From Oscillospiraceae bacterium (GTDB taxonomy: Bacteria > Bacillota > Clostridia > Oscillospirales > Oscillospiraceae), in the NCBI GenBank assembly GCA_017549125.1, contig JAFYVL010000072.1:1-54248 (forward strand): 54,248 nt of DNA, read 5' to 3'. The first letter of the stretch is position 1, and every line of letters begins with the position of its first letter. The notes under the pieces are model-generated. The model was given only the letters and a program-made list of their open reading frames with translations, did not search any database and had not been told where the DNA came from. The position numbers were made by a program, and so were the translations under genes. Shown here piece after piece: positions 20,895 to 43,922 of this stretch.

Positions 20895-23800
20895 ATGAAA
20901 AAAACATTGTTAGCATTGTTGCTGGCTTTGGTTGTGGTGGCAGGTTTTGTGCTCACCGCTACACCTGAAGTTAGCGCAGCAAATGACATTTCTCTTCTGT
21001 ATGATGACAGAAAAGATTTGTCTGAGCTGTTGGGTGTGAGTGTCACATCCGTAAAGATCACCAATCAAAATGTTACATCCAAAGCAGTAGGCTCTACTTC
21101 TAAGGATGCCAATGTTTTGATCTACGAAAATGGGGTTCTGTATGCAGTTGGCACCGGTACAGCGACCCTGACAGTAGACGGGAATGCTTATGCTGTTACC
21201 GTATCTCCTGCACCTATTTCTCTGTTTATGGTTACAGGCCATAGTGTGGGTGCTGGTCAGGAGGGTACTGCCAGCCAGTCCGTAGCTGTAGAAGCAGGAC
21301 AGGCATACAGCTCTTACTATGTTAAGAGCCTGGATACCACCAAGGTAGATGGCTATGGCCTGGGTTATGGCTCTGCTAAGCGTGCAGGTGTTGCCACTTC
21401 CAAGCAGTATGGCAGTACCGGCGATCTGGATGCCTTTGTTGCCGGCAAGGGTGGTACGGTTGGCGTAGGCTCTGCGTTTGCCGCAAAGTGGATTGAGCAA
21501 ACCGGTGAAAAGATCTGGGTGCTGAACGCAGCTGTTCCCGGTTCTTGTCTCAACGAGTGGAAGCCCGGTCATCCCGGTCACCACACCGGTACATCCGCCT
21601 ATGCTTATCCCTATTATGACAATGCGGTGGCTATGTATCAGTGTGCCCAGAAGATCTTGAAGAACGAGATCGCAGCCGGCCACTATACTCTCAGCCACAT
21701 GGGTATTGTGCAGTTCGTCGGTGCAAACTTTAGCGCCCGTTATCCTGACTTTACCCTGGATAGCCTGCTGCAGGACTATCATGATCTGTGGGATGGCTTT
21801 AAGGCTGCATTTACTATGGACGTAAACGGTGATGGCAAGACCGAAACCGTCGAGAAGCTGGCTTTGGTACCTTTCTGGAGTGCCAGCAGCCAGAACTATT
21901 CCGGCGATAAGGCAGCAGCATATTATATGTCTGCCAGCCAGGAATGGCCCGATGTATTTATTGTGTCTGATCTGTATCGCAACTGGGTAAAGGCTGCAGG
22001 CTTGTCTACTTTCCCTGCGATCAACTATGCCACCAACAGCGGTGAATCTGTACAGGTTCCTACCTCTGTGCAGCATACAAAGCAGGATGGTACCAGCGAT
22101 TGGAGCGTGTTCTGCGCTGCAGATAAGACCCACTTGAGCCAGGTGACTTATAATGCTGTTGGTTTTGACATTGGTCTGAATCTGTATAACTACTTCTACA
22201 AGAACATTTCTGCAACCGAGGCAGCGTTTAAGGACGTGTCCGGTAACGATCTGACAACTGCTTCTATTGGTGTTAAGAATCGTTTGAGCATTGTTCCTGT
22301 GGTGAAGGCTGTTTCCGGTAAGAATGTGACCCTGTCTGCGGAAGGTGCAGTATCCCTCAATGGTAACTGCATTGTTGGCAATGAGGTTGGTACCGGTACT
22401 GTGAAGATTCTGATTGGCGGTCAGGTGGCAGATACCCTGACTGTGACAGTTTCCAATGTGACTCATGTGGATCATTGTGCCTGTGGCGGCAATGCCAACG
22501 GCATGAAGAATCATACTTGCTCCACATTGTCCGGTTGGAGCGCATGGGGCGATACCGATGCGGAAAAGACTTCTTTCCCCACCACAGCAGGTAACTACTA
22601 CCTGGTCAGTGATATTACGGTAGGTACTGCACCCACTGTGTCTGCAAATGTGAATCTGTGTTTGAATGGCTTTAACATTACGGCATCCGTTCGTATCAAT
22701 GTAAAGGCGAATATCAGCATCACCGATTGCCGTGAGCAGAATAACTGGGGTACCTTCAAATCCACCAAGAGCGATAAGAACCTGGGCGGTCTGTTCTTCA
22801 TCTACGAAGGCAGCCGTAAGGTTAACTTCTACGGTGGTAATTTTGATGCCAGCGAAACTGCTATTTACCGTGGCGGTATTGCCCATATCGGTAACAACAG
22901 TAGCAGTAATGCAACTGTAAACGTTTATGCCGGTAACTTTAAGGGCGCAAATGTGGTTGCTAAGGCCGATGGTACTGCAACTGCTCGTGGTGGTTTGTTT
23001 ATCGTTACCACCGGCAGTACCCTGAATATGTATGGCGGCACCATGACCGGTGGCAGCACCGGCGAGAATGGTGGCGGTATCTACATCAACTCCGGTACGA
23101 CATTTAACATGTATGGCGGTACCATCTCCGGTGGTTCTTCTACCACCGATGGCGGTATTATTTACAATGCCGGTACTTTTAAGATGGAAGGCGGTACCAT
23201 CTCCGGTGGTAGCGCAAAGCAGGGCGGCAACGTCTATAACGCAAAGACTATGACCGTATCCGGCGGTACGATCTCCATGGGTGAGGCAAGTACCTACGGC
23301 GGTAATATTTGCGTCAGCAGTGCAGGTACTACTACCTATACCGGTGGTACTGTCTCTGGTGGTAAGGCTGCATCCGGTGGCGGTAATATCTGCGCACTGC
23401 CCGGTGCTACGGTCAATATTGGTCAGGCCAGCGGCAAGACCACCAAGATTGAAAACGGTATCGTAGGCGATGGCACCACCGGCAACGGCGGTAACATCTA
23501 CTGCGGTAAGAACAACACAACCTCTTCTGCTGTGACTGTTTCCGGTGGTACTGTTACCGGTGGTAAGGCAGAAAAAGGCGGCAATATTTACGCACAAAAC
23601 AATGTGGTTATCTCCGGTGGCACCACCCAAAATGGTGTTGCTATATCCGGTGGTAACATCTATGCTGCCGGAACATTCTCTGTCACCGGCGGTACCATTT
23701 CCGGTGGTCAGGCTGACAACGGCGGTAACATTTACAGCATTGGTAACTCCACCATTTCCGGTGGCGAGATCAAGAATGGTAAGGCTTCCGGTTGCGGTGG

Positions 23801-26800
23801 TAATATTTACCAGATTAACGACAAGGATGTTACCCTGACAATCAGTGGCGGTACCATCTCCGGTGGTAAGACCACAGCCACTACCGCAGATAATAAGGGC
23901 GGTAATATCTACATCCATGGCGAAAATGACAAGGAAGTAGGTAACGCGGTTATCAATGGCGGTACTATTACAGGCGGCATTGCCAACTTGGGTGGTAACA
24001 TCTATAACAATGGTACATTGACTATTAACGATGGTCTCATCACTTTGGGCGAGGCTAAGGGTTCCGGTGCATGTGCAGGTAACCTGTATGTGGGCATGGC
24101 TCGTAGTACAACCACCAAGGAAATTTATCCCAGCGTTCTGATGACTGGTGGTACCATCTCCGATGGTAAGGCTGCTTCTACCGGTGGTAATATCCAGTGC
24201 CACGCTGCCTTTACCATGACTGGCGGTTTGATCTCCGGCGGTAAATCTAACAGCTCTGCCGGTAATATTCGTTTGTTCCGTCCCGGTACATTTGTTCTGG
24301 ATGGCGGTACGATTGATGGCGGCGCGGCTGCTTCCAACGGCGGTGTATTCCAGGTCGTTGGCAATACTCCCACAACTTCTTATGAGCAGACAGCTGTTCT
24401 GACCATTAAGAGCGGTACCATCAATGGTGGCTCTGCTAAAAATGGTGGCGCAATTTCCCTGGAGCGTTTTGGTGTCCTGAACATGGAGGGTGGTACCATC
24501 AACGGCGGTACCGCTACCGAAAATGGCGGTGTCATCTACATCTACAGCCAATATGCTGACCGTGATGTAGTTGCCAATATTTCCGGCGGTGAGATCATCA
24601 ACGGCACTGCAGAACTGGGCGATGGTATTTACATTACTGCTGATGCTGATGCAAAGGTACCTGTGCTGACCGTCAGCAAGGATGCTTCGCTTAGCGGCAC
24701 TGGTGAAAACATTTATGTCAATAATGCATCTGATGTACAGGTTGTATTCAATCAGCTGTCCGGTGCAGACACATTGATTACTATGGATGCAGCCGATAAG
24801 GCAATGGCTTTTGCAACTGCTGATGCAGATTATAGCGGCTACATGCAGTGTGATGACGAGGCATATAAGGTCAGCTACGAAGACGGTGCGCTGTTCTTCC
24901 TGGAAGATAGCAGTGTTAAGGTGGCAGCTGTCTATGAAGGTCAGAATGAGCTTGGTAAGTATGCTACTTTGGAAGAGGCCATTGCAGCAGCCGGTAATGG
25001 CTATGTGAAGCTGCTGGTTGATGTGGAAACAGATTATGTACTTACCGGTACCGCATGGATTGATCTGAATGGTTTTGATCTGACAGGATTGACTGTCTCC
25101 GGTACTTTGTACGGCATGGATTCCACCACTTTGACCTATAATGGCGAAAATGTAGGTGTGCTGACCGCTACCGTCGTTGATGGCGGTCAGATCGTCGAGC
25201 ATTCCAAGAGCACCTCTGAACAGGTTGGCGGTATTTATCGCTACCTGACCATAGCAGGGGAGGATGGTACCTATACATTCCACCGCTTCTATGTAGGCAT
25301 TACCATGATGAGTATTGCACCTGCTCAGTACGGCATTGGCTATAAGGCTGAGTTCTATGGTGATGATGCTGTCAAGAATGCCTTGCAGCAAACTGATACA
25401 TTCGGCTATCAGCTGTGGATCGATGGCTATAATGCTGTTGTTCGTGATTATGATGCGGATCAGTTTGGTGTAAAGACCACATTGACTCTGCGTGTTTCTA
25501 ATTTCCTGGATCCTGCTAAGGATGACGCCTTCAATGAAGAGAGAGCCAACCTGAAGGTCAATGCTACTGTATTTATTACCCTGGCATCCGGTGAAATGAT
25601 TGAAACCGATGTTGTGGCATATTCCTTCAAGGAAATGACAGAATTGGCAACCAACCAGTATGAGGGCTATACTGCTGAAAAGCAGGAGGCTCTGGACCTG
25701 CTGGGTGCGCAATTTGAGTCCTTGATGTTCCAGTGGGCAATTCCTTTCATTCACCACGCAGGTGATGGCTGGATTGGTACTGATTCTATTCCTGACACCA
25801 CTGGCAAGTACTACCTGACTCAGGATATCAGCGTTTCTTCTACCTTGAAGATCGCACCGGATCAGGAAGTTACTCTGTGTCTGAATGGTCATAAGATCAC
25901 GGCATTTTCTCGTGTTTATTATGTTTCCGGTACGCTGAATATTTGCGATTGCTGCCATGCAAAGCCTGAGGCTGAGCAGGGTGCTATGATCGGCAACAGC
26001 ACCGGCACCATGGGTGCTATCCTGTATATGTACCACGGTGGTACATTCAACCTGTACAGCGGTAATCTGACCGCTACCAAGACCACCTATACCCAGGGCG
26101 CTGTCATTGTTATGGGCGGCGACGCCGATAAATATGACAATGAAAATGACCAGCTGCAGACATTCAATATGTACGGCGGTAAGATCTACGGTGGTAAAGC
26201 TACCTCCAACGGTGGTAATATTTCCAGCGTTCGCCCCTGCCAGATCAATATCTATGGCGGTGAGATCTCTGGCGGTACTGCCGGTGAGTACGGCGGAAAC
26301 ATCTACCTGAAGGGTACTGCAAGTAATAAGTCCGTGTTGAACATCTACGGCGGTACCATCTCCAGTGGTACATCCGGCAAGAATGGCGGTAACATTTATG
26401 GCGCAGATACCTGCCAGATCAATATCTATGGCGGCACCGTTGAAAATGGTACTACCTTGGCAAACGGTGGCAATATTGCCTTGAATTGCGATGATCTGCA
26501 CATGGAAGGCGGCGTGATCTCCGGTGGTAGTGCTGTATTTGGTGGTAACATTTTTGTTCCCGATACCGATAACACCCATCTGGGGCTTAATGGCGGTATC
26601 ATTACCGGTGGTAGAGCTGAAACCCATGGCGGTAACCTGTACCTGAGAAGCTTGGGTAAGACTTCTACTTATACCTTTAATAATGTAACCATTTCTGATG
26701 GCTACGCCAAGTGTGACGGCGGTAATATGTATATCTTCACCGATATGCTTTACGCCAACTACACAGAAGAAGAGTTCGATGTTCTGCTGAACAACTGTAC

Positions 26801-28736
26801 CGTTACCGGCGGTGAGGCAGGGGATATGGGCGACAGCATCTATGTGATGGAGGCTGACCTGACCATTTCCGGCAACTCTGTGATCCGTAATGAAAACGGT
26901 GAAAGCTTGTTCATTGGCACAGGTGAAACTGTGGAACTGAAGGATTTGGCATCCGGTGCTAAGATCTATGTTTCCATGGCTGTGCCCGGTACATTCACTG
27001 CGGATACTGCATACCTGAGCAATCTTTATGCAGACGATGCCTCTATGTATCTGGAAATCGTAGATGGCAATATTAAGCTGATCGACCAGACGATTCTGGC
27101 AAATGTACCGGAACTCAACGAATTTAGCGCTGGTTGGTACAGAGGTATCATTACACCTCAGGAGCCGATGCCTTTGGATGGCATGGGCAGCAACGATAAG
27201 CGTATGGAAAAGTGGGAGATCAAGACGCAGCTGGAAGCTGGCTTCACAGTCCTTGCTGACGAGACCGGTATTGAAAATGCCATTATGCTGGTTAGCGTGG
27301 ACACCTTGTTTATCCAGAAGGAATTGTCTGACAACCTGAGCCAGGCTATTTCTGATGCTACCGGTATCGCAAAGAACCGCATTTTCTATTCTGGCTCTCA
27401 TACTCATAGTGCAGTTGACCACGATGCAATTTTTGAGCAGACCAGAAATTATCTGGAAGACTTCTATGTCTACATGACCGACTACGCTGTGAAGGCTGTT
27501 GAGGATCTGGCACCTGCTACTATCCAGACCGCAGCCATCGATATTCTGGATGCTGAGGGTAATAGCTTGAATGCCTCTCGTCGTTTTATCGACGATGATG
27601 GCAATGCCTATTCCTCCGTTGATAATAAGACCACCTACGGTGATCCTAGCGGATTTGAAAGAGAGGCCGGCTCCGATCCCGAAATGCAGGTCATTCGCTT
27701 CAGCCGTACCGGCAAGGATGATGTGGTCATGTTCAACTATCAGGGTCACCCCTTCGGTTGGAATAGCTCCACCTACGGTCGTGTTTCCGCTGAAAACTGG
27801 AAGTACATCCGTGAAGCTCTGCAGGATAGTGTAGATGGCACCGTATGTACCTTCTTCATGGGTGCATCCGGCAACCAGGGTCATACCGATACCGCTATCC
27901 GTCAGAACATGGTTTCTGCTGTGGATCCCAGCATTACCTCTGCTTATGTCAGCAGTAGCACAACGGATTCTCTGATCGCAAACGGTAAGTTCGTGGCCAG
28001 CTATATCAAGTATGCTTTGGAGCATGCAACGGAAGTACAGCCCGGTGAATTGAAGGTAGTGAACCACACCGTTGAAATGGAGGATTACTATTTTACCAGT
28101 GCTGATCCTTACTACACCGGTAACGCAAACGATAAGCCTGACAGCTCTGCCTATAAAGCGATTGATTTTGATCTGAATGCTGTGTTGATTGCAGATTCTG
28201 TTGGTTTTATTACGGCTCCTTATGAGATGTTCCATGATAACGGAATTCAGATCAAGGACTTTGCTGAGGATCTGGGTATTGCTACCTGCTTTGTGCTGAC
28301 TAACTCCATGGGCGAGAATAAGTACATTGCTTCCTACAATGCCTTTGATAACGATACTACCGACGATAAATATACCAGCTTCGGTGTTCGTACCGGTCGT
28401 TTCGTATGGGGTACAGCAGAGGCGCTGATTGAAAACTATGCAGATATGCTGGCTCAGCTGAAGGGTGTTGCAACTCCCGATACCATTTATAAGACCATCC
28501 ATGTGGATGTGGTGGATCAGAACGGCAACCCTGTTCAGAATGTCATGATCGAGCTCATTGGCAATGGTGAGACTCGTAACTGCTCCAATGCTGACGGTAC
28601 TGTTGACTACTATATCTATAAGGACGGCACATTCGGTGTGAATGTTGTTAAGTGTCCTGCAGGTTACAGCTACAACGGCGGTGTTGTGGAATTTGGCGAT
28701 AACAATTCCGTCACCATTACTGTAACAGCTGAATAA
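20895..28736 (+). CDS. Giant secreted protein 1: SGNH esterase, two beta-helices, ceramidase-like domain
   Basis: 2613 aa with a Sec signal peptide (about 1-30). Order: Ig-like module shared with exoprotein 2 (27-105); SGNH/sialate-O-acetylesterase-like domain with Ser117 (TGHSVGAG), Gly216, Asn278, Asp410 and His413; Cys-containing linker; right-handed beta-helix (about 600-1250, some 18 GG-turn repeats); the shared module of unknown fold (about 1470-1615); second beta-helix (about 1690-2000); neutral-ceramidase-like domain from about 2068, with His2169/His2171 in GSHTHS and His2285 in YQGHPFGW; C-terminal prealbumin/SpaA-like domain (2533-2613). There is no LPXTG, dockerin or S-layer motif, so it is probably released or loosely wall-bound. 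AAGGAGG precedes the ATG at 20895, and the promoter rules out the upstream frame. Domain names are from motifs and need a profile search. Confidence 0.85.
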   Translation: MKKTLLALLLALVVVAGFVLTATPEVSAANDISLLYDDRKDLSELLGVSVTSVKITNQNVTSKAVGSTSKDANVLIYENGVLYAVGTGTATLTVDGNAYAVTVSPAPISLFMVTGHSVGAGQEGTASQSVAVEAGQAYSSYYVKSLDTTKVDGYGLGYGSAKRAGVATSKQYGSTGDLDAFVAGKGGTVGVGSAFAAKWIEQTGEKIWVLNAAVPGSCLNEWKPGHPGHHTGTSAYAYPYYDNAVAMYQCAQKILKNEIAAGHYTLSHMGIVQFVGANFSARYPDFTLDSLLQDYHDLWDGFKAAFTMDVNGDGKTETVEKLALVPFWSASSQNYSGDKAAAYYMSASQEWPDVFIVSDLYRNWVKAAGLSTFPAINYATNSGESVQVPTSVQHTKQDGTSDWSVFCAADKTHLSQVTYNAVGFDIGLNLYNYFYKNISATEAAFKDVSGNDLTTASIGVKNRLSIVPVVKAVSGKNVTLSAEGAVSLNGNCIVGNEVGTGTVKILIGGQVADTLTVTVSNVTHVDHCACGGNANGMKNHTCSTLSGWSAWGDTDAEKTSFPTTAGNYYLVSDITVGTAPTVSANVNLCLNGFNITASVRINVKANISITDCREQNNWGTFKSTKSDKNLGGLFFIYEGSRKVNFYGGNFDASETAIYRGGIAHIGNNSSSNATVNVYAGNFKGANVVAKADGTATARGGLFIVTTGSTLNMYGGTMTGGSTGENGGGIYINSGTTFNMYGGTISGGSSTTDGGIIYNAGTFKMEGGTISGGSAKQGGNVYNAKTMTVSGGTISMGEASTYGGNICVSSAGTTTYTGGTVSGGKAASGGGNICALPGATVNIGQASGKTTKIENGIVGDGTTGNGGNIYCGKNNTTSSAVTVSGGTVTGGKAEKGGNIYAQNNVVISGGTTQNGVAISGGNIYAAGTFSVTGGTISGGQADNGGNIYSIGNSTISGGEIKNGKASGCGGNIYQINDKDVTLTISGGTISGGKTTATTADNKGGNIYIHGENDKEVGNAVINGGTITGGIANLGGNIYNNGTLTINDGLITLGEAKGSGACAGNLYVGMARSTTTKEIYPSVLMTGGTISDGKAASTGGNIQCHAAFTMTGGLISGGKSNSSAGNIRLFRPGTFVLDGGTIDGGAAASNGGVFQVVGNTPTTSYEQTAVLTIKSGTINGGSAKNGGAISLERFGVLNMEGGTINGGTATENGGVIYIYSQYADRDVVANISGGEIINGTAELGDGIYITADADAKVPVLTVSKDASLSGTGENIYVNNASDVQVVFNQLSGADTLITMDAADKAMAFATADADYSGYMQCDDEAYKVSYEDGALFFLEDSSVKVAAVYEGQNELGKYATLEEAIAAAGNGYVKLLVDVETDYVLTGTAWIDLNGFDLTGLTVSGTLYGMDSTTLTYNGENVGVLTATVVDGGQIVEHSKSTSEQVGGIYRYLTIAGEDGTYTFHRFYVGITMMSIAPAQYGIGYKAEFYGDDAVKNALQQTDTFGYQLWIDGYNAVVRDYDADQFGVKTTLTLRVSNFLDPAKDDAFNEERANLKVNATVFITLASGEMIETDVVAYSFKEMTELATNQYEGYTAEKQEALDLLGAQFESLMFQWAIPFIHHAGDGWIGTDSIPDTTGKYYLTQDISVSSTLKIAPDQEVTLCLNGHKITAFSRVYYVSGTLNICDCCHAKPEAEQGAMIGNSTGTMGAILYMYHGGTFNLYSGNLTATKTTYTQGAVIVMGGDADKYDNENDQLQTFNMYGGKIYGGKATSNGGNISSVRPCQINIYGGEISGGTAGEYGGNIYLKGTASNKSVLNIYGGTISSGTSGKNGGNIYGADTCQINIYGGTVENGTTLANGGNIALNCDDLHMEGGVISGGSAVFGGNIFVPDTDNTHLGLNGGIITGGRAETHGGNLYLRSLGKTSTYTFNNVTISDGYAKCDGGNMYIFTDMLYANYTEEEFDVLLNNCTVTGGEAGDMGDSIYVMEADLTISGNSVIRNENGESLFIGTGETVELKDLASGAKIYVSMAVPGTFTADTAYLSNLYADDASMYLEIVDGNIKLIDQTILANVPELNEFSAGWYRGIITPQEPMPLDGMGSNDKRMEKWEIKTQLEAGFTVLADETGIENAIMLVSVDTLFIQKELSDNLSQAISDATGIAKNRIFYSGSHTHSAVDHDAIFEQTRNYLEDFYVYMTDYAVKAVEDLAPATIQTAAIDILDAEGNSLNASRRFIDDDGNAYSSVDNKTTYGDPSGFEREAGSDPEMQVIRFSRTGKDDVVMFNYQGHPFGWNSSTYGRVSAENWKYIREALQDSVDGTVCTFFMGASGNQGHTDTAIRQNMVSAVDPSITSAYVSSSTTDSLIANGKFVASYIKYALEHATEVQPGELKVVNHTVEMEDYYFTSADPYYTGNANDKPDSSAYKAIDFDLNAVLIADSVGFITAPYEMFHDNGIQIKDFAEDLGIATCFVLTNSMGENKYIASYNAFDNDTTDDKYTSFGVRTGRFVWGTAEALIENYADMLAQLKGVATPDTIYKTIHVDVVDQNGNPVQNVMIELIGNGETRNCSNADGTVDYYIYKDGTFGVNVVKCPAGYSYNGGVVEFGDNNSVTITVTAE
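23030..24620. repeat. Beta-helix coding repeats, array 1
   Basis: Degenerate repeats of about 60-90 bases centred on GGCGGTACCATCTCCGGTGG encode turns such as YGGTISGG, EGGTISGG and NGGTITGG, about 18 of them by eye. Unit length and sequence vary, so this is a protein repeat rather than a minisatellite. It is prone to recombination and assembly collapse. Confidence 0.85.
26160..26840. repeat. Beta-helix coding repeats, array 2
   Basis: A second, shorter series of about six GG turns (YGGKIYGG, YGGEISGG, YGGTISSG, EGGVISGG, NGGIITGG) separated from array 1 by the shared non-repeat module. Confidence 0.8.
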
Positions 28737-30419: not shown

Positions 30420-30427
30420 TCATACAA

Positions 30428-31989: not shown

Positions 31990-32018
31990 ATTGTACTATA
32001 TTTTTCTTGGAGAATCAA
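31990..32018 (-). promoter_or_regulatory. Promoter of the phosphohexomutase gene
   Basis: On the minus strand TTGATT (32013-32018), 17-base spacer, TACAAT (31990-31995). The -35 box overlaps the stop codon of the upstream AraC gene. Confidence 0.7.
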
Positions 32019-32812: not shown

Positions 32813-32947
32813 AGAAATCACCTCAGTTTGATTGTATAGGTGGCAAGAGTTTTTGTCAATAAAATAAGATATTCAACCATTTACTTAATGCATATTTTTT
32901 GATACGATTGTAATGGAAAAATGTACACTTAGATAGGAGGAATATTC

Positions 32948-35900
32948 ATGAAACATATTACTCGTTTGTGTTTGCTGGTGCTGATGGTTCTGCTGGTGCA
33001 GTTTTTTGCGGTGCAGGCCATGGCGGGGGAGGCAATTCCTACCGTATATCTGGATGCGGTCAGCGGACAGGATACCAACGACGGTCTGACCGCGGATACC
33101 GCAGTCAAGACCTTGGATGCAGCCTATGGCAAGCTTTCTGCCAGAGGCAAAATCGTTCTGGTCACTGACTATACGATTACCATGACAGCAGAAAATCAGA
33201 CCATTACTACAAAATCCCATAGCTATGAGGTTATTTTGACCGGTCAAACTGCGGACACAAAGCTGACCGTAGCCACCACGATGAAAAACCTCTATCTGGG
33301 TTTACAGGGCCCCACAACATTTGAAAATATCACCGTAAATGTGGACGGCACCTCTAATGCCTGTATTTATGGCAACGGCGGTCATGTGAAGATCGGTAAT
33401 AATGTTAAGACAACCTCCACTACCAAGTTCAAGCTCAGCGCAGGTCCTCTGCGAACCGGCTATGTGGGTGATATGTCCCTGGAAGTAAACTCCGGTAACT
33501 GGCAGGATCTATGCGCCGGTGCTTATATGTATACCATGAACGGTAATGGCTCTCTGGTCATGAACGGCGGCTCCGTTGTGAATCTGGAGGTTACCTATAA
33601 CGGCAAGCATACCGGCGATGTGTCCATTACCATTAACGGAGGTACGATCACCAATCTCTATGGCGGTTCCCGTCATAAAAACGGTGTGCTCACCGGTGAT
33701 ATTACTGTGTATTGGTATGATGGTACCATCACGAATCTGGATATTGACGGCTTAGGTACGATCAACGGTACATCCAAGCTGGTTAAGCCGGAAGCAAAGG
33801 ATTTGGCGCTGCAATACGACGATCGCAAGGATCTGGCGAGCCTGGTGGGCTATACAGCTGGCAATGTGACCATTTCTAACGAGCAGGTTACATCCTGTCA
33901 AGTGGGTACGACTACCAAGGACGAGCATGTTATTATTTATGAAGATGGGAAGATCATTGCGACTGGTATCGGTACTGCAGATCTGAAGGTGGGCTCTGTG
34001 ACCCATAAGGTGACAGTAACACCTGCCACCATCTCCATGTTTATGATTACCGGCCACTCCGTGGGCGCAGGTGACGGCGGTGCTATCGGTCAATCCGTGC
34101 TGTGCGAGGCAGGCCAGGTGTACAGCAGCCACCGGCCCTATGCCATTACCTCCGGCGAGGGCGGCCTTGGCTACGGTTCTGCAGTTCGTGCGGGTTGTAA
34201 GGATAGCAGCGGTAATACCGTGGATATTTCCAATCAGCAGCATCTGGATGCTTTCACCGCTGAGGGCGTGGGTACCACCGGTGAAGGCAGTGCTTTTGGC
34301 TATCAATGGAACAAGCTTACCGGCGAAAAGGTTTGGATCTTGAACTTCGCCGTGGGTGGTTCTTGCCTGAATGAATGGCAGACCGGCGTCAAGGGTCATG
34401 CCACTTGGACCGAGTATCATTATGATACTGCGATCAAGTCTTTTAGTTATGCGCAAACTGTGGTGAAAAATGAAATTGCTGCCGGACACTACACATTTGG
34501 ACATATGGCAATGCTTTATCACAACGGTGTGAACTATTCCAACTATCCCGGCTGGACCTATGAAAAGATCGAAGCGGATTATGCCGCAATGTGGAACGGC
34601 TACAAAGCGGCCTTGGCTACCGATATGGATGGTGACGGCACAGAGGAGACTCTGGAGGGCTTGGGACTTGTGCCTTTCTATAATTTCCTTAACGAGTACG
34701 ATGATCATTTTGACAAGCCCGCAGGCTATTACATGGCATCTTCTGCAGAGTACCCCGATGTGTTCCTGGCTTCCAATGTTTACTTTAACTGGATGCGCCT
34801 GGAAGGCTTGTCTTCTTTCCCTGTGCCCAACTACTCTGTGCAGAACGGCAGTACCTTGAAAGTGCCTGACAGCATTGCCCACGAAGCAAATGGTGGCACC
34901 AGCACCAACAGCGTGTTCTGTAAGGCTGACAATATGCATCCCACCCAGGTGGTACACAATGCCACCGGTATGCAATTGGCAAACAGCATGTACAGCTATT
35001 TGCACGATGCTCACGAAACTACATCCTTGACCCTGCAGGATCAAGCTCATAACCCTGTGAGCCATTTGGATTTAGTCGTAGGGGAGAGTAAGCACCTGGT
35101 TGCTATGATCACTCCCAATTGCAAGGGCAATGTGACCTATGAGGCTCAGGGCGCTGTATCCATTCAATATCCCCTGCAGGTGGTTGGTAATGAAATCGGT
35201 ACAGGTACGATTATCGCCAGGGCAGGTGATACCATTCTGGCAACGGTGACCGTTACTGTCACAGAAAACACCCATGTCCATTGCCTTTGCGGCATGCAGG
35301 ATGCTTGCGTTGAGTCCGTAAGCTGGACAGCCTGGGGCGACGATGCTTACGAGCAGAATGTGCTGCCTTTCTTGTCCGGTAACTATTATCTGGCAGCGGA
35401 TATCACCGTTAACAAATCCATGCTTGCTGAGCCCGGGGAGACCATTCGCATCTGCTTGAACGGTCACACCATCAACACCGGCTCGGAGCGTGTTGCCAAT
35501 AATCAAGGCAATATGCTCATTACCGATTGCGCAGAGACCCAGGGCACTTTGACCAGCCAATATTCCAGCAAATATGCCCAGATCCTCTATAATTACAGCG
35601 GGGCACAGCTGGATATTTACGGTGGCAATCTGATGCCTGCCGGTCAATGCGAGTGGGGCGGTGCAATTTTGAACCACGGCACTACCAATGTGTACGGTGG
35701 TCATATCTACGGCGACACCAATGTGAAAAACACGCTGGAAGCCCGTGGCGGCGCGATCTATATCATTGCCGGACAGGTGAATCTGTATGGTGGCACCATT
35801 TATGGCGGCAATGCTACCAAGGGCGGCGCGATCTATATGGACAGCAGTAAGCTGGTCATCGACGGCGCAACCATTATTGGCGGCGAGGCCAGCATGGGCG

Positions 35901-36874
35901 GCAACATTTATGCAGACCATACCTCTGTGATCGAACTCAAGAGCGGTGCGATTACCCAGGGTTACGCCAGAAACCAGGGCGGTAACATCTATATGTACAC
36001 CTCTGCAAAGGATGGTGTGGGCCGCAATAGCAAGTTTACAGTATCCGGCGGTGAGATTTCCATGGGTACTGCGAAAGATCGTGGCGGCAATATCTTCGTA
36101 ACCACCGGTACCAGCGACCCCGGCGCTTGTAAGATCGAAGTGATTGGCGGTCAGATCTTGGGTGGCGAGGATAATATCATTCTGCGTAATAACGGACAGC
36201 TTCTGGTTCAGGGCGGTGTCATTACTGCAGATGGCTTTAGCGTACAGTTTGAAAAAAGCTCTGCGTCTGCACCTACCCCTTGTTTGACCCTGCAGGATAG
36301 CTTTACCTTAGGCACGGTGTATATGGAAGCTGCAGAAAAGGGACTGATTTGCCTGGCATCAGAAACGGTCAGCCCTGTAGTGCTCATGGGTACACCCAGC
36401 GTTCGTTTCTATGGCAGCGACGATACTCATGTTTTAGGTGCTGTGATCGACCGTCTTAGCTTGAGCCCTGCCGTGAGAGGCTTTGGCTATAAGGCATCCT
36501 TCCAAATGGATGAAGCTACAGAGAAAATGCTTACAAGCCAGGGCTATACCCTGTGGTTGGAGGGGGGCAATACTGTGACCCGCAATGCCCACGACATCCA
36601 AAATGAGATGACCCTGCGGCTGAAGAATATTGATATTCAAAACTATGGATCTGCCAAGGTTAGCGCAAAGGTCAGCATGCAGCTTGCTAACGGTCTGTGT
36701 GTGGAAAGCGAAACCGTCAACTACAGCATGCAGGATATGGTAGAGATGATCTCTGCGGATCTGACAAAGTATGATGCTACCCAGATTCAATCGGTTCAGA
36801 CCATGCTGGAGGGATATACCGCTGTTGAAAGCTGGAATATTCCCGAACTTCTGGCATGGAATCAGGAAATATAA
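32948..36874 (+). CDS. Giant secreted protein 2: SGNH esterase with beta-helix
   Basis: 1308 aa with a signal peptide (about 1-27). Order: N-terminal module A shared with exoprotein 3 (VYLDAVSGQDTNDGL, AVKTLDAAY; about 30-270), a DUF1565/beta-helix-like start; Ig-like module shared with exoprotein 1 (YDDRKDLASLVG; about 280-360); SGNH/acetylesterase-like domain with Ser371, Gly471, Asn529, Asp661 and His664 aligned to exoprotein 1; Cys-containing linker; beta-helix (about 795-1085); C-terminal shared module (about 1155-1308) ending in WNIPELLAW. No wall anchor is visible. AGGAGG lies 7 bases before the ATG. The LarA-like gene follows after 13 bases. It probably de-esterifies an extracellular glycan; the substrate is inferred only. 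Confidence 0.85.
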   Translation: MKHITRLCLLVLMVLLVQFFAVQAMAGEAIPTVYLDAVSGQDTNDGLTADTAVKTLDAAYGKLSARGKIVLVTDYTITMTAENQTITTKSHSYEVILTGQTADTKLTVATTMKNLYLGLQGPTTFENITVNVDGTSNACIYGNGGHVKIGNNVKTTSTTKFKLSAGPLRTGYVGDMSLEVNSGNWQDLCAGAYMYTMNGNGSLVMNGGSVVNLEVTYNGKHTGDVSITINGGTITNLYGGSRHKNGVLTGDITVYWYDGTITNLDIDGLGTINGTSKLVKPEAKDLALQYDDRKDLASLVGYTAGNVTISNEQVTSCQVGTTTKDEHVIIYEDGKIIATGIGTADLKVGSVTHKVTVTPATISMFMITGHSVGAGDGGAIGQSVLCEAGQVYSSHRPYAITSGEGGLGYGSAVRAGCKDSSGNTVDISNQQHLDAFTAEGVGTTGEGSAFGYQWNKLTGEKVWILNFAVGGSCLNEWQTGVKGHATWTEYHYDTAIKSFSYAQTVVKNEIAAGHYTFGHMAMLYHNGVNYSNYPGWTYEKIEADYAAMWNGYKAALATDMDGDGTEETLEGLGLVPFYNFLNEYDDHFDKPAGYYMASSAEYPDVFLASNVYFNWMRLEGLSSFPVPNYSVQNGSTLKVPDSIAHEANGGTSTNSVFCKADNMHPTQVVHNATGMQLANSMYSYLHDAHETTSLTLQDQAHNPVSHLDLVVGESKHLVAMITPNCKGNVTYEAQGAVSIQYPLQVVGNEIGTGTIIARAGDTILATVTVTVTENTHVHCLCGMQDACVESVSWTAWGDDAYEQNVLPFLSGNYYLAADITVNKSMLAEPGETIRICLNGHTINTGSERVANNQGNMLITDCAETQGTLTSQYSSKYAQILYNYSGAQLDIYGGNLMPAGQCEWGGAILNHGTTNVYGGHIYGDTNVKNTLEARGGAIYIIAGQVNLYGGTIYGGNATKGGAIYMDSSKLVIDGATIIGGEASMGGNIYADHTSVIELKSGAITQGYARNQGGNIYMYTSAKDGVGRNSKFTVSGGEISMGTAKDRGGNIFVTTGTSDPGACKIEVIGGQILGGEDNIILRNNGQLLVQGGVITADGFSVQFEKSSASAPTPCLTLQDSFTLGTVYMEAAEKGLICLASETVSPVVLMGTPSVRFYGSDDTHVLGAVIDRLSLSPAVRGFGYKASFQMDEATEKMLTSQGYTLWLEGGNTVTRNAHDIQNEMTLRLKNIDIQNYGSAKVSAKVSMQLANGLCVESETVNYSMQDMVEMISADLTKYDATQIQSVQTMLEGYTAVESWNIPELLAWNQEI

Positions 36875-36887
36875 TGGAAGTGTTTGT

Positions 36888-38114
36888 ATGAATGATACCA
36901 TTAGAAATTTATTATATGATGTGAAGCTGCCCAAGTTTGTGCGGATCAAGCAACAGTTTGATGCCACCTGTATTCCCAAGGAGCAGATTGCTCAAGTGGT
37001 CTATTCGCAGCTGTCTCAGCCTCAGATCGCTGAGAAAATCAAGCCGGGTATGTCCGTGTGTCTGACGTGCGGCAGCCGAGGCATTGATAATATTGTTGCC
37101 ATCACAAAAGCGGTTGTGGACTTCTGTATAGCACAGGGCGCCCATCCTTTTGCTATACCGGCTATGGGTAGCCACGGCGGTGCGACGGCCCAGGGCCAAT
37201 TAGATGTGTTAACATCCTTTGGTATTACAGAGGAAAGTATTGGTTGTCCCATTCGATCTTCTATGGAAACGGTCTGCATCGGTCATACCGATGAGGGACA
37301 CCCGGTGCATATTGACCGCTATGCAGCTGAGGCAGATGGTATCATTCTGATCAATCGTATCAAGCTGCACACATCCTTCCGTGGAGAGTACGAAAGCGGC
37401 CTCATGAAGATGATGGCCATTGGTTTAGGTAAGCAGAAGGGCGCGGAAACCTGTCATGCTGAGGGATTCCCAAGAATGCACCACATGGTTCCTTTGTTTG
37501 GTAAGGTGATTTTGGAAAATGCACCTGTGGCTTTTGGCTTGGGCATTCTGGAGAATGCCTTCGACAAAACCGCCCAATTGCACGCACTCACACCTGCGCA
37601 GATCATTACAGAAGAACCCAAACTTTTAAAGGTGGCGGCATCCTTGATGCCTTCCCTGGGATTTGAAAGCTGTGATGTGCTGGTTGTGGATGAGATCGGT
37701 AAAAACATTAGTGGCTGTGGCATGGATCCCAATATTTCCGGTGTGTTTGCGACTCCGGGAATGACTGGTGGTATCAGCGCCCAGAGACGGTGTATTCTGT
37801 CCTTGACAGAAGAGACCCATGGCAATGGTTATGGAATGGGTGCAGCAGATGTGGTGACCCAACGGCTCTATGACCAGCTGGATCTGGATATGGTTTATCC
37901 CAATTCCATTACATCCACTTCTCTGGGTTTTGCAAAAGTGCCTGTGATCGTGGATACAGAGGAGAATGCCATTAAGCTGTGCATTCGCACATGTCACCGG
38001 ATTGACAAGGACAATCCGCGTATTATCCGTATTAAAAACACATTGGAACTCAGCGAGTTTGAAATTTCGGAGGCTATGATCCCGGAAATGAAAGAGAATA
38101 TGGTAATCATCTAA
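36888..38114 (+). CDS. LarA-like (DUF2088) nickel-pincer racemase-type protein
   Basis: This 408-aa protein resembles the LarA family, whose founder racemises lactate with a nickel-pincer cofactor; other members act on other 2-hydroxyacids. Visible are the N-terminal DUF2088-type fold (LTCGSRGIDN), MGSHGGAT with His96, RIKLHTSFRGEYESGLMKM and GLGKQKGAETCH, where the Lys and His correspond roughly to cofactor-tethering and catalytic positions. No larB, larC or larE cofactor genes are in the window. The ATG at 36888 has GGAAG upstream, and the exoprotein 2 stop is 13 bases away, so they form an operon. Secreted esterase plus intracellular hydroxyacid enzyme suggests catabolism of a released product; this is inference. 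Confidence 0.8.
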   Translation: MNDTIRNLLYDVKLPKFVRIKQQFDATCIPKEQIAQVVYSQLSQPQIAEKIKPGMSVCLTCGSRGIDNIVAITKAVVDFCIAQGAHPFAIPAMGSHGGATAQGQLDVLTSFGITEESIGCPIRSSMETVCIGHTDEGHPVHIDRYAAEADGIILINRIKLHTSFRGEYESGLMKMMAIGLGKQKGAETCHAEGFPRMHHMVPLFGKVILENAPVAFGLGILENAFDKTAQLHALTPAQIITEEPKLLKVAASLMPSLGFESCDVLVVDEIGKNISGCGMDPNISGVFATPGMTGGISAQRRCILSLTEETHGNGYGMGAADVVTQRLYDQLDLDMVYPNSITSTSLGFAKVPVIVDTEENAIKLCIRTCHRIDKDNPRIIRIKNTLELSEFEISEAMIPEMKENMVII

Positions 38115-38115
38115 A

Positions 38116-38417: not shown

Positions 38418-38443
38418 AACAGGGAGCCATCCGGCTCCCTGTT
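38417..38443. terminator. Terminator hairpin, right copy of the duplication
   Basis: 27-base exact repeat of 38116-38142, now next to the stop codon of the AraC gene at 38442. It keeps the original downstream T-rich flank of the plus-strand terminator. Confidence 0.75.
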
Positions 38444-39290
38444 AATTTTCGTTATAGGCTTTACGGAATGCGCTGGGGGAGATGCCGTAATGCTGCTTAA
38501 ATGTTCTGGAAAAATGGTCAACATCTGTGAATCCCACTCGTTCTGCAACTTGAGAGATGGAAAGATTGCCCCGATTCAATAGATTTCGTGCTTTTTGGAC
38601 ACGGAGCATATTCAGATATTCCACAACGGTCTTTCCGGAGTTGCGCTTGAATATGGCACATAAATAGTTGGGGTGCAGATGCACATGCTCGGCCAGCTCT
38701 GCAAGGGTGATTTTAGATCGATAATTCGCATCCATATACTGAATGCATGCGCGGGTTGCGTCGTGGCTTTTTTGCAGGTCTCGCTTCTGACTCATGGTTT
38801 TGCAGGCAGGCAAGATCTCCAGGCAAAAGGTGAGTAGAGCGATAAATTGCTGATTCTGATTACCCTCTATAATCTGTAAAATGGCTTCTTTGGCTTTTGA
38901 CGTTAATCCCTGCTCGGTAGTAAATTTATCTGGGATCATTAATGTGCCGGATTTTAGGGGTTCTACAAATGAAAGCTGAAAGAAATGATTATCTGGCATT
39001 TGGATCAAATCCATGGAAAATCGAATGCTCCAATACGTTCCATAGGCGGCAAGGGAACGGATTGCGTGGATTCGGCCTGTGGGAATCAAGCAGATTTCGC
39101 CTTCATTGAGAATAAAATTTCCGTTTTCACTGTATATTTCATAAGTGCCTTCCTGGGCATATAGCATTTCTGGCTCTGGGTGCCAGTGGATGTTTACGTA
39201 GCTTTCCATGATTCGACGAATCGGGTAGCTTGTGGCCTCAAGGGGAAAGGAAGGGTTGTTAAACTTTCGATAAATTCGAATAGGTTTCAT
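38442..39290 (-). CDS. AraC-family regulator, divergent from exoprotein 3
   Basis: This 282-aa regulator has an N-terminal cupin domain (NIHWHPEPEMLYAQEG, INEGE-like LNEGEICLIPTGRIHAI) and a C-terminal double helix-turn-helix (LAELAEHVHLHPNYLCAIFKR-type and VAERVGFTDVDHFSRTFKQHYG-type segments). The WHxEPE-like segment is typical of AraC sensors of sugars and plant or mucin glycans. GGAGG precedes the ATG at 39290. The divergent gap of 171 bases to exoprotein 3 holds two perfect inverted repeats, candidate operators. The stop codon overlaps the right terminator hairpin. Confidence 0.9.
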   Translation of the reverse strand: MKPIRIYRKFNNPSFPLEATSYPIRRIMESYVNIHWHPEPEMLYAQEGTYEIYSENGNFILNEGEICLIPTGRIHAIRSLAAYGTYWSIRFSMDLIQMPDNHFFQLSFVEPLKSGTLMIPDKFTTEQGLTSKAKEAILQIIEGNQNQQFIALLTFCLEILPACKTMSQKRDLQKSHDATRACIQYMDANYRSKITLAELAEHVHLHPNYLCAIFKRNSGKTVVEYLNMLRVQKARNLLNRGNLSISQVAERVGFTDVDHFSRTFKQHYGISPSAFRKAYNEN

Positions 39291-39351
39291 GCGCAACCTC
39301 CAATACTTAATAAAAAGCGGCTAAACCTTAAAAAAAGCCGTTGTTTACCTG

Positions 39352-39461: not shown

Positions 39462-42400
39462 ATGAACAAGTTAAAGCTATTGCTTCCTGTTCTGCTGTTG
39501 GTTGCAATTTTATTTGCATTGCCTGTGGCAGCGGCAGGAGATGCGGAGACAATGACCGTTTATGTGGATCAGACCAATGGTCTGGATACCAATAACGGCT
39601 TGTCTGAAGCAACTGCAGTTAAGACGCTGGATGCGGCTTATGTGCTGTTAAACAACAGTCTTGCGAATGACGGTACCGGCACCATTGTGCTGGTCAGCGA
39701 TTATACCCATACCTTTGCTTCGCAGTATGAAAAAATCTCTACCTCTGTTACCAAGCATTCTTTTGAGGTGGTGATCACCGGTAAAACAGCGGCTACCAAG
39801 CTGCTTTTGAGCCGCACAGCCGGTACCGGCTATTTCTACATGACCGGTCCTACCACCTTCAAGAATTTGCACATGGGTCTGGCTTCGGGATGTAATCAGT
39901 ATACTATGTTCCAGGGTGCAGGTGTAAACGGCAAGTTTGTGATCGGCGAGGGCGTTACCACACCCAGCTCTGCAACCTTGCGTCCTTGTTTGAGCGCTGT
40001 ACCCAGCATTACTTCTGCCAACACAGAGAGCTATGCCGGTAAGGCTATTTATATGGAGATCAATTCCGGTGATTGGAAGAGTGTTTATGCAGGCGCATAT
40101 GCCCATGCTTGCCGCGGTAATGCGACCCTGGTTATGAATGGCGGTTCTGTGAATAAGATGTCTGCTATTTATAATAAGGTCTTTTCCGGCAATGTGAACT
40201 TTGTTTTGGCCGGTGGCACTATTGCTGAATTCTGCACCAGCGCTGCAAATGCTGCCGGTACTGTTACCGGAGATGTTACTACCACCATTAAGGGTATGTA
40301 TCCTAGCAAGATCTCTAACTATGGTGCGGTTAACGGCAATAAGTACATGGATCTGGAAAATGCCAATGTGGCGCTGCCTTCCGGCGCCCATACCTTCCGT
40401 AATGTATCTGGTGGTACTTTGACCATCGATCCTACATCCACCATTGCTGTGACCGGTTCTGTGACCGGCACAACCACCATTAACTTTGACGGCGATGCTG
40501 CTACCGGTATGGCCTATGTGTCTGCACCGGGGTCTACAGCGGACAATGCCTTTGTTTTTGATGGCACGACCGCTACTGTTGCTGTTAATAATGGTGTTAA
40601 GACCTGGACCACTGCCGGTGAGTATGTGTTCAAGGGCTTAGTTCTGACCGTTAATAACAGCAATTATAAGGTTACCTTGTACAGCGGCCTGTCCGGCTCT
40701 ACAAAAATCGAGCCTACAGAGGTTGTGACCGAGAATGGCTTGGTGAAGTATTACTTTGAGGGCTTGGCTGCAGGCAACTACCGTACCAATGTTTCCCGTA
40801 GCGGTTTCTATACCATCAACAAGGCTCGTGTATTCACTGCTGAACAGATGGCTACAGAAACTGTTATTGATGTGTCTACCGAAAAGCGCATCTTTGATGG
40901 CAGTTCTGTTGCTGATTACCAGGGTATCACCGTTAAGGAATTTACTGATGCTATGATGGCTATGCTGACCAATAAGGAGGCAGCCTGGTATCAAAATTAT
41001 TCTCAGTATTTGACCACTCCTGTATTTGCTGAGGGCAAGAAGCACCAGCAGACAACCCAGGAGGAGATGGAATCCTATATTGCCGGTCTGGACAAGCCCG
41101 ATGACAATATGTATGTTTACAGCATCGGTGAGTCTGCAGAGGGTAAGAATATTCCAATTGTGATCTTCTCTTTGACAGATCTTTCCGGAGCTGAGACTCT
41201 GGAAGAGGCTGCCGCTTTGATCCGTGAAAACAAAAAGCTGAATGTTCATTATCAAGCACAGGTTCACGGCAACGAGCCTGCCGGTGGTGAGGCAGCTTTG
41301 GCAACCATTGGCAGATTGAATTCAGACTACGGTGATCGTCTGCTGGAGAAGATGAACATTTATGTGATTCCTCGTCTGAATCCCGATGGTTCTTATGATT
41401 ATGTTCGTGTATTCCCCGGCAATGGACTCAACGGCAACCGTGATTATCTCATGGCGCGATCTGTAGAGATCCAGGCACAGCATTATGTGTATAACCTGTT
41501 TTTGCCTGAGCTGGCCATAGATGGACACGAATATACTGTTGACAATGGCAATAATAACCAGGCCTATAAGGACATGATGATGGCCGGTGGTTATAATGGC
41601 AACAGTGGTGAGGAATTCGTAAAGTTCACCGAGGACATGATCATGGGTGTGATCCCGGATCTGAAGGCGCAAGGCCTGGATTTTAGCTTCTACACCAATA
41701 TTACCAACAATGATTATAGCGTTTCCGGCACCATGTACGCAGGCCTGCGCGGCTCTGTGAGCTTCCTGCTGGAAAGCCGCGGTATTTCCTTCGGTAACCA
41801 TACCATGGATCGTCGCGTTATCTCCCATCTGGTTACCCTGGAGAACATTTTCGAGTATGCTTATACCAATACCGAGGATGTACGGGCTGTCTCCAATGCA
41901 GAGCGTCAGCGCATTATCAGCAATGGTTTGACCTATGAAGACACCGATACGCTGGTGGTTGCCCACAAGAAGGTCAGCGATGAGCGGCTGAACCATGTGA
42001 CCGATAAGTTCAGCTATTTGACCGGACAGAAGACCGGTACAATCGAGGTTGTGCCCACTAAGTATGTGGCAGATGTTACCCGTGTGCGTCCCACCGCTTA
42101 TGTGATTCCTGCGGGACAGGAATGGACACAGCAGGTTTTGGAACTGTTGGATCTGCATGGCATTTCCTATTCCTTCTACGAGGCCGGTACTGCCATCAAC
42201 CTGCAGAAATATCTGGGTACAACCGCCGGTGCAACCTTGAGCGAGGAACAGGTTGTTGTATTTGGCAAGGGCGCATATGTTATGACTATGAACCAGTCCA
42301 GCGCCTTGATTCTGACCTCCTTGATGGAGCCGGATCTGAAGAACGAGTATTTTGAGGAAACCGACAGCGGCAACACCAACATTTACGGTAATCTGGCGCA

Positions 42401-43922
42401 GCTGCAGGTCGTTCCCAACGATGGCGCAGGATTCCCCATTTACCGTTATATCCATGACCTGAATGCAGAAGGCAAGATTGATACCACCGAGGCTCCCAAG
42501 GTAGAATACAAGGTCTATATCCACAGCGAAAACGGTCTGGATACCAACGATGGCTACAGTGAGGAAACTGCCGCCAAGACCATCGACTATGCCTTTGCAC
42601 AGTTGAATGCCTTGATGGCCAATGCTCCCGAGGGCACAACCGGTACTGTGGTATTCCTGGATCTATACGAGCTGGGCGATAACGCCTATATTTTCCCCGC
42701 ACATGATTATCCCGTTGTTCTGACTTCTAAGACCGGAGCTGAGGGTCTGGCAAAGAAATATTTGAAGGACAATGCCTGGTTTGCTTTCAGCGGTGACGTG
42801 ACTCTGGATAACATGACCATCTGGCCCTCCGGCGGCAATGACTATTATTACATTTTTGCAAATGGTAACAATCTGACGGTAAATGCCAATGTCACAACTA
42901 AGGCAAGCTCCCAGGGTAAATATTTTACAATTTCTGCAGGTGCTTATGCTGATTCCTGGGTGAACGCCAACTCCGAAAATCCGTTACCTGTGTATAACAC
43001 ATTGGAGATCCTGGGTGGTACATGGAAGTATGTGTACGGCTCTAGCTACACTGGCAATGCAAAGGGCAATCCCCAGGTCATTGTGGAAAATGCCTCTATT
43101 TTGGGTTATATGCCCAGCTATGCAGCTACCACCAATGGTCATGTTACCATTACTATGAAAAATACTGTGGTTCGGGATGGCATGATCTATCTGGGCAATG
43201 CCAATAAGCGGAATTTGACTCATTCTACTGTGATCCTGCAGGAGGGTGTGGATGTTAAGACCATCTATACCGGTAGCCGTGATGCAGGCAATGTGAGCAA
43301 GAATGCTACTATTGTTGTGGATGGCGCAGATATGACCGGTATTGAGATCGTCCAGGGAGCAAAGAATGCCACTGGTACTGTAGGCAAGAACATTCTGGCC
43401 TATAAGAGCGGTACTATTGGCAAGATCGTCGGTTATGACGAGGTGCAGGTCTATGTAGACGGTCAGTTCTATGCCCTGAGCGCTGCCATGACAAATTTGA
43501 GCCTGGAGCCTGCAAAAACCGGCTTTGGCTACAAGGCAGCCTTTACCTGTGACGATGCCATTAAGAGCATGATCGTCAGCCAGGGCTTTAGCCTGTGGAT
43601 CACCGAGGATATTGTTGTAAACCGCAGTATGTCTGCTTTCCAGGCAAATATGACTCTGCGTTTGAAAAATTTCCTGATCGAGGAATATGGCTCCGCAAAG
43701 GTCAACGCCAAGGTTTATGTGGAACTGAGCAACGGTTTGATCATTGAAACTGAGGTCGTTTCCTACAGCATGCAGGATATGATCGAAATGATCGCAGCGG
43801 ATCTGCCCAGCTATACCGATGTGCAGATTCAGTCTGTTCAGAATATGCTGGCTGGATACCCTGTTGTTACCAGCTGGAATATTGAGAACCTGCTGGCTTG
43901 GACTCCTACAGAAGAAAACTAA
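39462..43922 (+). CDS. Giant secreted protein 3: M14 zinc carboxypeptidase with repeated accessory modules
   Basis: 1486 aa with a signal peptide (about 1-25). Order: module A copy 1 (VYVDQTNGLDTNNGL, AVKTLDAAY); beta-rich linker; M14 carboxypeptidase domain (about 490-810) with zinc ligands His602 and Glu605 (HGNEPAGG), NPDG at 640, substrate-type NRD, a third ligand candidate His689 (DGHEY) and catalytic Glu771 (LLESRG); an M14-associated extension with RPTAYVIP; module A copy 2 (VYIHSENGLDTNDG; from about 1014); C-terminal shared module (1343-1486) ending in WNIENLLAW. It should trim C-terminal residues from extracellular peptides or wall peptides. AGGAGG precedes the ATG at 39462; the upstream open frame runs through the regulator region and is not coding. 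Confidence 0.87.
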   Translation: MNKLKLLLPVLLLVAILFALPVAAAGDAETMTVYVDQTNGLDTNNGLSEATAVKTLDAAYVLLNNSLANDGTGTIVLVSDYTHTFASQYEKISTSVTKHSFEVVITGKTAATKLLLSRTAGTGYFYMTGPTTFKNLHMGLASGCNQYTMFQGAGVNGKFVIGEGVTTPSSATLRPCLSAVPSITSANTESYAGKAIYMEINSGDWKSVYAGAYAHACRGNATLVMNGGSVNKMSAIYNKVFSGNVNFVLAGGTIAEFCTSAANAAGTVTGDVTTTIKGMYPSKISNYGAVNGNKYMDLENANVALPSGAHTFRNVSGGTLTIDPTSTIAVTGSVTGTTTINFDGDAATGMAYVSAPGSTADNAFVFDGTTATVAVNNGVKTWTTAGEYVFKGLVLTVNNSNYKVTLYSGLSGSTKIEPTEVVTENGLVKYYFEGLAAGNYRTNVSRSGFYTINKARVFTAEQMATETVIDVSTEKRIFDGSSVADYQGITVKEFTDAMMAMLTNKEAAWYQNYSQYLTTPVFAEGKKHQQTTQEEMESYIAGLDKPDDNMYVYSIGESAEGKNIPIVIFSLTDLSGAETLEEAAALIRENKKLNVHYQAQVHGNEPAGGEAALATIGRLNSDYGDRLLEKMNIYVIPRLNPDGSYDYVRVFPGNGLNGNRDYLMARSVEIQAQHYVYNLFLPELAIDGHEYTVDNGNNNQAYKDMMMAGGYNGNSGEEFVKFTEDMIMGVIPDLKAQGLDFSFYTNITNNDYSVSGTMYAGLRGSVSFLLESRGISFGNHTMDRRVISHLVTLENIFEYAYTNTEDVRAVSNAERQRIISNGLTYEDTDTLVVAHKKVSDERLNHVTDKFSYLTGQKTGTIEVVPTKYVADVTRVRPTAYVIPAGQEWTQQVLELLDLHGISYSFYEAGTAINLQKYLGTTAGATLSEEQVVVFGKGAYVMTMNQSSALILTSLMEPDLKNEYFEETDSGNTNIYGNLAQLQVVPNDGAGFPIYRYIHDLNAEGKIDTTEAPKVEYKVYIHSENGLDTNDGYSEETAAKTIDYAFAQLNALMANAPEGTTGTVVFLDLYELGDNAYIFPAHDYPVVLTSKTGAEGLAKKYLKDNAWFAFSGDVTLDNMTIWPSGGNDYYYIFANGNNLTVNANVTTKASSQGKYFTISAGAYADSWVNANSENPLPVYNTLEILGGTWKYVYGSSYTGNAKGNPQVIVENASILGYMPSYAATTNGHVTITMKNTVVRDGMIYLGNANKRNLTHSTVILQEGVDVKTIYTGSRDAGNVSKNATIVVDGADMTGIEIVQGAKNATGTVGKNILAYKSGTIGKIVGYDEVQVYVDGQFYALSAAMTNLSLEPAKTGFGYKAAFTCDDAIKSMIVSQGFSLWITEDIVVNRSMSAFQANMTLRLKNFLIEEYGSAKVNAKVYVELSNGLIIETEVVSYSMQDMIEMIAADLPSYTDVQIQSVQNMLAGYPVVTSWNIENLLAWTPTEEN

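Follow-up and report, generated by a model that had tools for sequence, protein, structure and literature searches.

How secreted enzymes are attached decides the feeding of polymer-digesting anaerobes. According to PMC4081043, three Ruminococcus albus strains have 77, 51 and 102 copies of the module CBM37 on secreted enzymes, and dockerins are often present on the orthologues of these enzymes in R. flavefaciens. That paper reports that CBM37 attaches enzymes to carbohydrates of the bacterial cell wall and binds many polysaccharides. Here we describe a module of about 150 residues, with the working name GYKA, that is the block common to three giant exoproteins (exo1, exo2 and exo3). They are encoded in a window of 54,248 nucleotides from an Oscillospiraceae bacterium (GenBank assembly GCA_017549125.1, contig JAFYVL010000072.1, positions 1 to 54,248 of the forward strand).

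The likeness to CBM37 drawn here is one of description: both are lineage-specific modules on tens of secreted enzymes, and on present evidence GYKA would, by analogy, work as CBM37 does in R. albus. In contrast to CBM37, carriers of GYKA make up 15% of the assembly, phosphoesterases and GDSL esterases are the commonest among the families listed, and no two-copy protein was detected, whereas some CBM37 copies stand in tandem. No annotated CBM37 enzyme was found on pRUMAL01 (positions 1-400000 of 420706), and one GYKA query gave no tblastn match to the plasmids. As in a cellulosome, each secreted enzyme of the set has one common module; unlike a cellulosome, the assembly is without dockerin or cohesin matches, and GYKA is some 150 amino acids (aa) long. 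SLH domains, which are usually repeated within a protein, offer a further comparison. In congeners, SLH matches fall partly on frames of 2000-3000 aa, a likeness to the present set, whereas our genome has a single SLH match and GYKA is single in each protein. The Oscillospiraceae proteins of about 40,000 residues noted in PMC13104272 are a different matter.

The array of GYKA carriers

A profile built from the three window copies gave 70 matches in 70 distinct open reading frames (ORFs) of the genome assembly (2.29 Mb, 71.5% complete). Sixty-five copies were aligned, after exclusion of the three ORFs with in-frame stops and of two fragments at contig ends, and the profile from this alignment found no ORF in the assembly with two copies. 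The 67 carriers free of in-frame stops add up to 115,797 aa, or 15.2% of the assembly. The real object is thus a genome-wide, lineage-restricted array of about 70 module-tagged, mostly giant exoproteins. A preliminary description of the window, made from its letters, had seen a family of three and proposed looking for further paralogues; what it observed was confirmed, and its interpretation turned out too narrow in resting on three proteins and in naming an unproven substrate. The stop-bearing ORFs (C38:12652-13536, C54:7502-10147 and C56:535-2556) are possibly decaying copies or assembly errors. Two carriers on separate contigs, C41:12442-18771 and C48:54018-58979, have GYKA modules that are 96% identical, which points to copying or conversion not long ago.

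The carriers are unlike one another in their catalytic domains. Among the Pfam matches listed for the 67, Metallophos was present in 19 carriers, GDSL_2 in 14, Laminin_G_3 in nine, GH123_cat in six and GH43 in three. GH78, GH88, alginate lyase, alkaline phosphatase, GDPD, endonuclease I, M14 and BNR were each seen at least once or twice; these rare-family counts are lower bounds, with up to 21 further family entries possible. Binding domains of the F5/8 and ricin types and LamG are also present. One carrier of 3134 aa (L057:2246-11647) joins GH123 with two metallophosphoesterase stretches.

GYKA itself had no convincing family match in Pfam: the most-matched family took 5 of the 65 members (best E 0.0085), and the lowest E value, 0.0048, came from another family, matched by two members. 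PDB sequences gave no match (best E 0.3), and a genome-wide search with the dockerin model picked up none of the members. No module like GYKA is named in the available parts of the literature on the related genome SIG476, giant Oscillospiraceae proteins and similar modules.

The position of GYKA varies. In 61 of the 70 ORFs (three with in-frame stops and six cut by contig or stretch ends were excluded) it was C-terminal in 20, in the N-terminal third in 13 and internal in 28. Variable placement suits a binding domain, and GYKA might be a carbohydrate-binding module that targets enzymes to their substrate and not to the producing cell. The LamG, F5/8-type and ricin-type domains and the polysaccharide-active enzymes among the carriers agree with this, as do the many polysaccharides bound by CBM37 (PMC4081043). 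We nevertheless consider it unlikely, as a single module type, with one detected copy each, spans phosphoesterases, nucleases, a peptidase and glycosidases.

A "DLNG...YGMDS" half-module often stands upstream of GYKA. By eye this YGMDS half looks like the end of a beta-helix, and in exo1 it does come after a helix, so that the two together could be a structural cap, or a folding or stability domain, that serves giant and in many cases beta-helical proteins and plays no part in attachment. However, only some of the carriers were matched by the exo1 helix, many of them through the YGMDS part alone, and GYKA is also found in the N-terminal third. We regard a purely structural role as improbable.

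Proposed attachment to the producing cell

The reading that we favour, at roughly even chances, is that GYKA is a lineage-specific attachment module holding secreted enzymes at the cell surface. A carrier would be exported and its signal peptide cleaved, after which GYKA would bind a common surface component and so hold unrelated catalytic domains on the producing cell. In other bacteria SLH domains or dockerins serve this purpose, and some congeners have them in many copies. We infer both the binding to the surface and the nature of what is bound. The first reason for this reading is that one detected copy sits on such unlike enzymes.

A second reason lies in the mostly cleavable export signals and the lack of a C-terminal anchor. 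By a simple cleavage rule, 60 of the 64 carriers with a hydrophobic start have a cleavable signal peptide, against 4 of 9 module-free proteins (Fisher p 0.0009). The uncut carrier C12:1250 shows no hydrophobic start and is not counted among the 64. Neither an LPxTG motif nor a membrane segment was present in the last 60 residues of the 63 carriers with a readable C-terminus. Inspection by eye of the nine module-free proteins (616-3088 aa) showed five with an uncleaved membrane anchor, one with a lipobox and three with a cleavable signal. Giants of this genome without GYKA (1989-3088 aa) that by eye have an apparent uncleaved membrane anchor are L140 (C22), L142 (C38), L144 (C26), L145 (C11) and L091 (C76).

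Third, other anchoring systems are scarce in the assembly and plentiful in some congeners. Dockerin (PF00404) and cohesin (PF00963) had no match in the assembly and SLH (PF00395) had one, with none in exo1-3 at E 0.1; the earlier statement that the window proteins lack a classical anchor or dockerin holds. SLH matches numbered at least 98 in G010 (98 of 157 candidates scored), at least 94 in G025 (98 of 109 scored), 84 in G028, 62 in G035 and 43 in G024, and dockerins 20 in G010 and 11 in G031. The fourth reason is an apparent, distant swap of anchors. In G031 an esterase homologue lies in a 4104-aa frame with a dockerin at its end, and two dockerin proteins of that genome match one carrier (C42:17007) at about 33%. 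At the G031 locus L130 (contig C12), the 4104-aa frame and one of 965 aa end in near-identical dockerins.

Several observations weigh against attachment. Since the assembly is incomplete, absences from it are provisional. The varying position of GYKA is unlike that of a sorting signal. Alongside its GYKA proteins, the related SIG476 shows 4 matches to dockerin and 7 to cohesin. A body match (at least 30% over 200 aa) was found in only 2 of 82 congener frames, shadow frames included, both at about 33% and to one protein of our genome; the case of the same enzyme with another anchor therefore rests on very few, distant examples. The nine module-free proteins are a convenience sample, a third of which have a cleavable signal without the module, and the cleavage rule is imperfect because an apparently anchored SIG476 protein passed it. 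Finally, the two GYKA-rich and five SLH-rich genomes do not overlap (n=37), an outcome with a chance of about 74% by hand arithmetic. The idea that GYKA and SLH exclude each other within the genus was accordingly rejected as not significant.

Were attachment by GYKA true, solutions to enzyme attachment would evolve repeatedly and could differ within a genus. GYKA, found in number in two genomes and unmatched in Pfam, is placed where relatives use dockerins or SLH domains, and through it dozens of giant proteins of one genome can be described together.

Distribution and comparison with SIG476

Five of 60 genomes searched as relatives, our own included, have GYKA. Oscillospiraceae metagenome-assembled genome SIG476 (G033), with 48 matches, is the only other one found to have it in number; G014, G016 and G017 have one or two each. 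Among 391 genomes sampled from the class, 398 from the phylum and 400 from the family, the own genome alone gave a GYKA match. SIG476 was not drawn in the family sample, so such sampling can miss carriers. In SIG476, 45 of the 48 matches were used (C9, C36 and C48:48159 were left out). All 45 ORFs, 72,870 aa together, have one copy; the ends were readable in 43, and 28 of these have the module at the C-terminus.

With the module left aside, the two genomes share 23 reciprocal best pairs, several of them resting on weak or short matches. They include exo1-3, whose partners have long frames (1481, 1547 and 2156 aa). Decay in related strains, which the preliminary description had named as a refutation, was examined in this one relative: long frames are there for all three, but the exo1 partner matches at only 39% over 1314 aa and has just 308 aa beyond its GYKA, too few for a ceramidase-like part in the same place.

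We then compared modules with bodies in 22 of the 23 pairs, one pair not being in the tree. The partner's module was the nearest SIG476 module in 6 of the 22, where an unrelated pair would be expected to give 1 in 45. In the ten strongest pairs (bodies matching at 50% or more along 500 aa or more), it was nearest in four, within the nearest three in seven and clearly distant in three. In the distant cases, bodies alike at 64%, 57% and 55% go with modules alike at 32%, 31% and 32%; exo2 is the third of these. In nine of the ten pairs, likeness was lower in the module than in the body. Overall, the nearest module came from the same genome for 88 of 110 (60 of 65 in our genome, 28 of 45 in SIG476), against a permutation mean of 56 and maximum of 82 (2000 permutations). 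Likeness within a genome is also expected from duplication after the split. These comparisons show module exchange for some proteins, though not as the rule. Domain shuffling, as proposed for the three window proteins, was right in kind, with some of it seen between species.

Modules that occur singly and resemble one another more inside a genome than across genomes would also be expected of one co-evolving partner, as if GYKA were a dockerin-like domain docking onto an unrecognised scaffold protein. Against this, cohesin has no match in the assembly, and no scaffold candidate turned up, although no systematic search for one was made. We think docking of this kind improbable. The attachment reading can be taken further: GYKA would be a new surface-attachment module of a cohesin-free, cellulosome-like array that, in an uncultured species close to SIG476, fills at least 15% of the assembly; it would have arisen in one small lineage and would sometimes be copied among enzymes, with each species' version drifting to match its own receptor. 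This fuller account is tentative and on balance somewhat unlikely; we rate it lower because only three of the ten strongest pairs have a clearly different module.

The three exoproteins of the window

The layout of the three proteins is as follows; Ig-like and CnaB/Ig-like assignments in exo1 were made by eye.

20895..28736, + strand: exoprotein 1, 2613 aa counted from the signal-peptide Met (ORF 20793-28736)
20967..22547, + strand: exo1 Ig-like, SASA-type esterase and second Ig-like part (GHS at 21237, D..H at 22119)
22500..24902, + strand: exo1 helix 1, GGx[IVL] repeats, beta-helix-like (median repeat spacing 13)
24903..25202, + strand: exo1 "DLNG...YGMDS" half-module, approximate limits
25260..25757, + strand: exo1 common module GYKA, internal (blastp and profile search)
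25761..27104, + strand: exo1 helix 2 (repeat motif count and sequence comparison)
27105..28472, + strand: exo1 neutral-ceramidase-like domain (SHTHS, H, E and Y as candidate zinc ligands)
28473..28733, + strand: exo1 C-terminal small domain, CnaB/Ig-like (a C22 paralogue is 58% identical)
32948..36874, + strand: exoprotein 2, 1308 aa
33002..33724, + strand: exo2 module A (blastp and genome search)
33788..35335, + strand: exo2 Ig-like part and SASA-type esterase (GHS at 34052, D..H at 34925)
35336..36217, + strand: exo2 helix-like repeats (motif count)
36422..36871, + strand: exo2 common module GYKA, C-terminal (blastp and profile search)
39462..43922, + strand: exoprotein 3, 1486 aa counted from the signal-peptide Met (ORF begins at 39180)
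39510..40283, + strand: exo3 module A, copy 1 (blastp and genome search)
40977..42029, + strand: exo3 M14 zinc carboxypeptidase domain, approximate limits (HGNE 41265, H 41520, E 41769)
42507..43256, + strand: exo3 module A, copy 2 (blastp and genome search)
43464..43919, + strand: exo3 common module GYKA, C-terminal (blastp and profile search)

These positions agree with those first given for the proteins, the signal peptide of exo1 starting at 20895 and that of exo3 at 39462, inside its ORF. Each protein has a signal peptide: that of exo1 was recognised by eye and by the simple rule, and that of exo2, among the four of 64 failing the rule, is ordinary by eye.

Every shared block named in the preliminary description was recovered by blastp among the three proteins. 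The Ig-like part, esterase and helix start align between exo1 58-843 and exo2 281-1053 (42%, E 7e-158). Module A of exo2 (19-237) matches the first copy in exo3 (111-351; 41%, E 2e-36) and, over 33-247, the second (1112-1346; 26%, E 1e-15). GYKA aligns between exo2 1131-1304 and exo3 1403-1574 (51%, E 8e-47), and the exo1 copy, at about 1496-1651, matches exo2 at 31% (E 4e-14) and exo3 at 37% (E 2e-17). Module A is almost confined to the window, with three of five genome matches there and the other two weak and partial; the Ig-like and esterase unit has five matches in its own genome and five in SIG476. GGx[IVL] motifs number 29 in exo1 helix 1, 12 in exo1 helix 2 and 11 in the exo2 helix, with median spacings of 13, 12 and 15.5; in 500 shuffles the counts never exceeded 13, 7 and 6. 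Such repeats are compatible with beta-helices.

The different catalytic sets proposed for the three proteins were likewise borne out. In exo3, M14 (PF00246) matched at E 8.4e-13 (49 bits against a cut-off of 21.6; of the 286 profile positions, 2-106 form the best stretch), and HxxE/H/E residues of the M14 type are visible, with HGNE, H and E in the roles that we presume for them. Exo1 and exo2 share a block described earlier as an Ig-like module with an SGNH domain; the block stands, and the esterase is of another type. Six of eight alignment members matched PF03629 (SASA), the best at 4e-7 and the exo1 copy at only 0.0053, below Pfam's cut-off. D312 and H315 are invariant in all eight, and GHS in the window copies corresponds to GQSNAEG in the G031 homologue, motifs to which we assign their usual roles by assumption. 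By these matches we class the window esterases as SASA-type carbohydrate esterases. Assignment to the SGNH family PF13472 was rejected: none of its 31 places in the genome lies in the window. Many of these GDSL_2 places are in frames of 1200-3500 aa, some paired or tripled per protein.

The last domain of exo1 (27105-28472) matched human neutral ceramidase (4wgk) at E 7e-6 with a four-member profile, its first half aligned. PF04734 matched one of the four members, a paralogue, at 1.6e-6, and the exo1 copy alone gave no match in the Pfam search. An H-T-H-type motif (SHTHS), H, E and Y are conserved in all four at positions that we take to be zinc ligands. The domain appears to be a distant relative of neutral ceramidase, and ceramide activity is not implied.

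The preliminary description saw in these domains (ceramidase-like, acetylesterase-like and carboxypeptidase) a coordinated set for degrading a substrate such as mucin or host sphingolipid. The domains are indeed present, yet a closed set of three proteins is not supported: these are three of 70 carriers, their genes are dispersed and no result points to either substrate; the ceramidase likeness is one of distant family homology. We hold a dedicated set of this kind to be highly improbable. Genes for glutamate dehydrogenase, a phosphoglucomutase-type protein and a nickel-pincer isomerase stand between the exo genes, on both strands, and exo1-3 therefore do not form one operon. AraC-type regulators lie divergently beside exo2 (32015-32821, - strand) and exo3 (38442-39296, - strand), of which they are possible local regulators, respectively. 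RadC-, Spo0A-, FtsW/RodA- and SipL-type genes surround the exo genes. The isomerase, nickel-pincer-dependent and of NCBIfam group 22 (36771-38114, + strand), is directly 3' of exo2, whose end its listed ORF start overlaps. Antisense to exo1 runs an open frame of 2530 aa (20910-28502, - strand), probably a codon-usage artefact.

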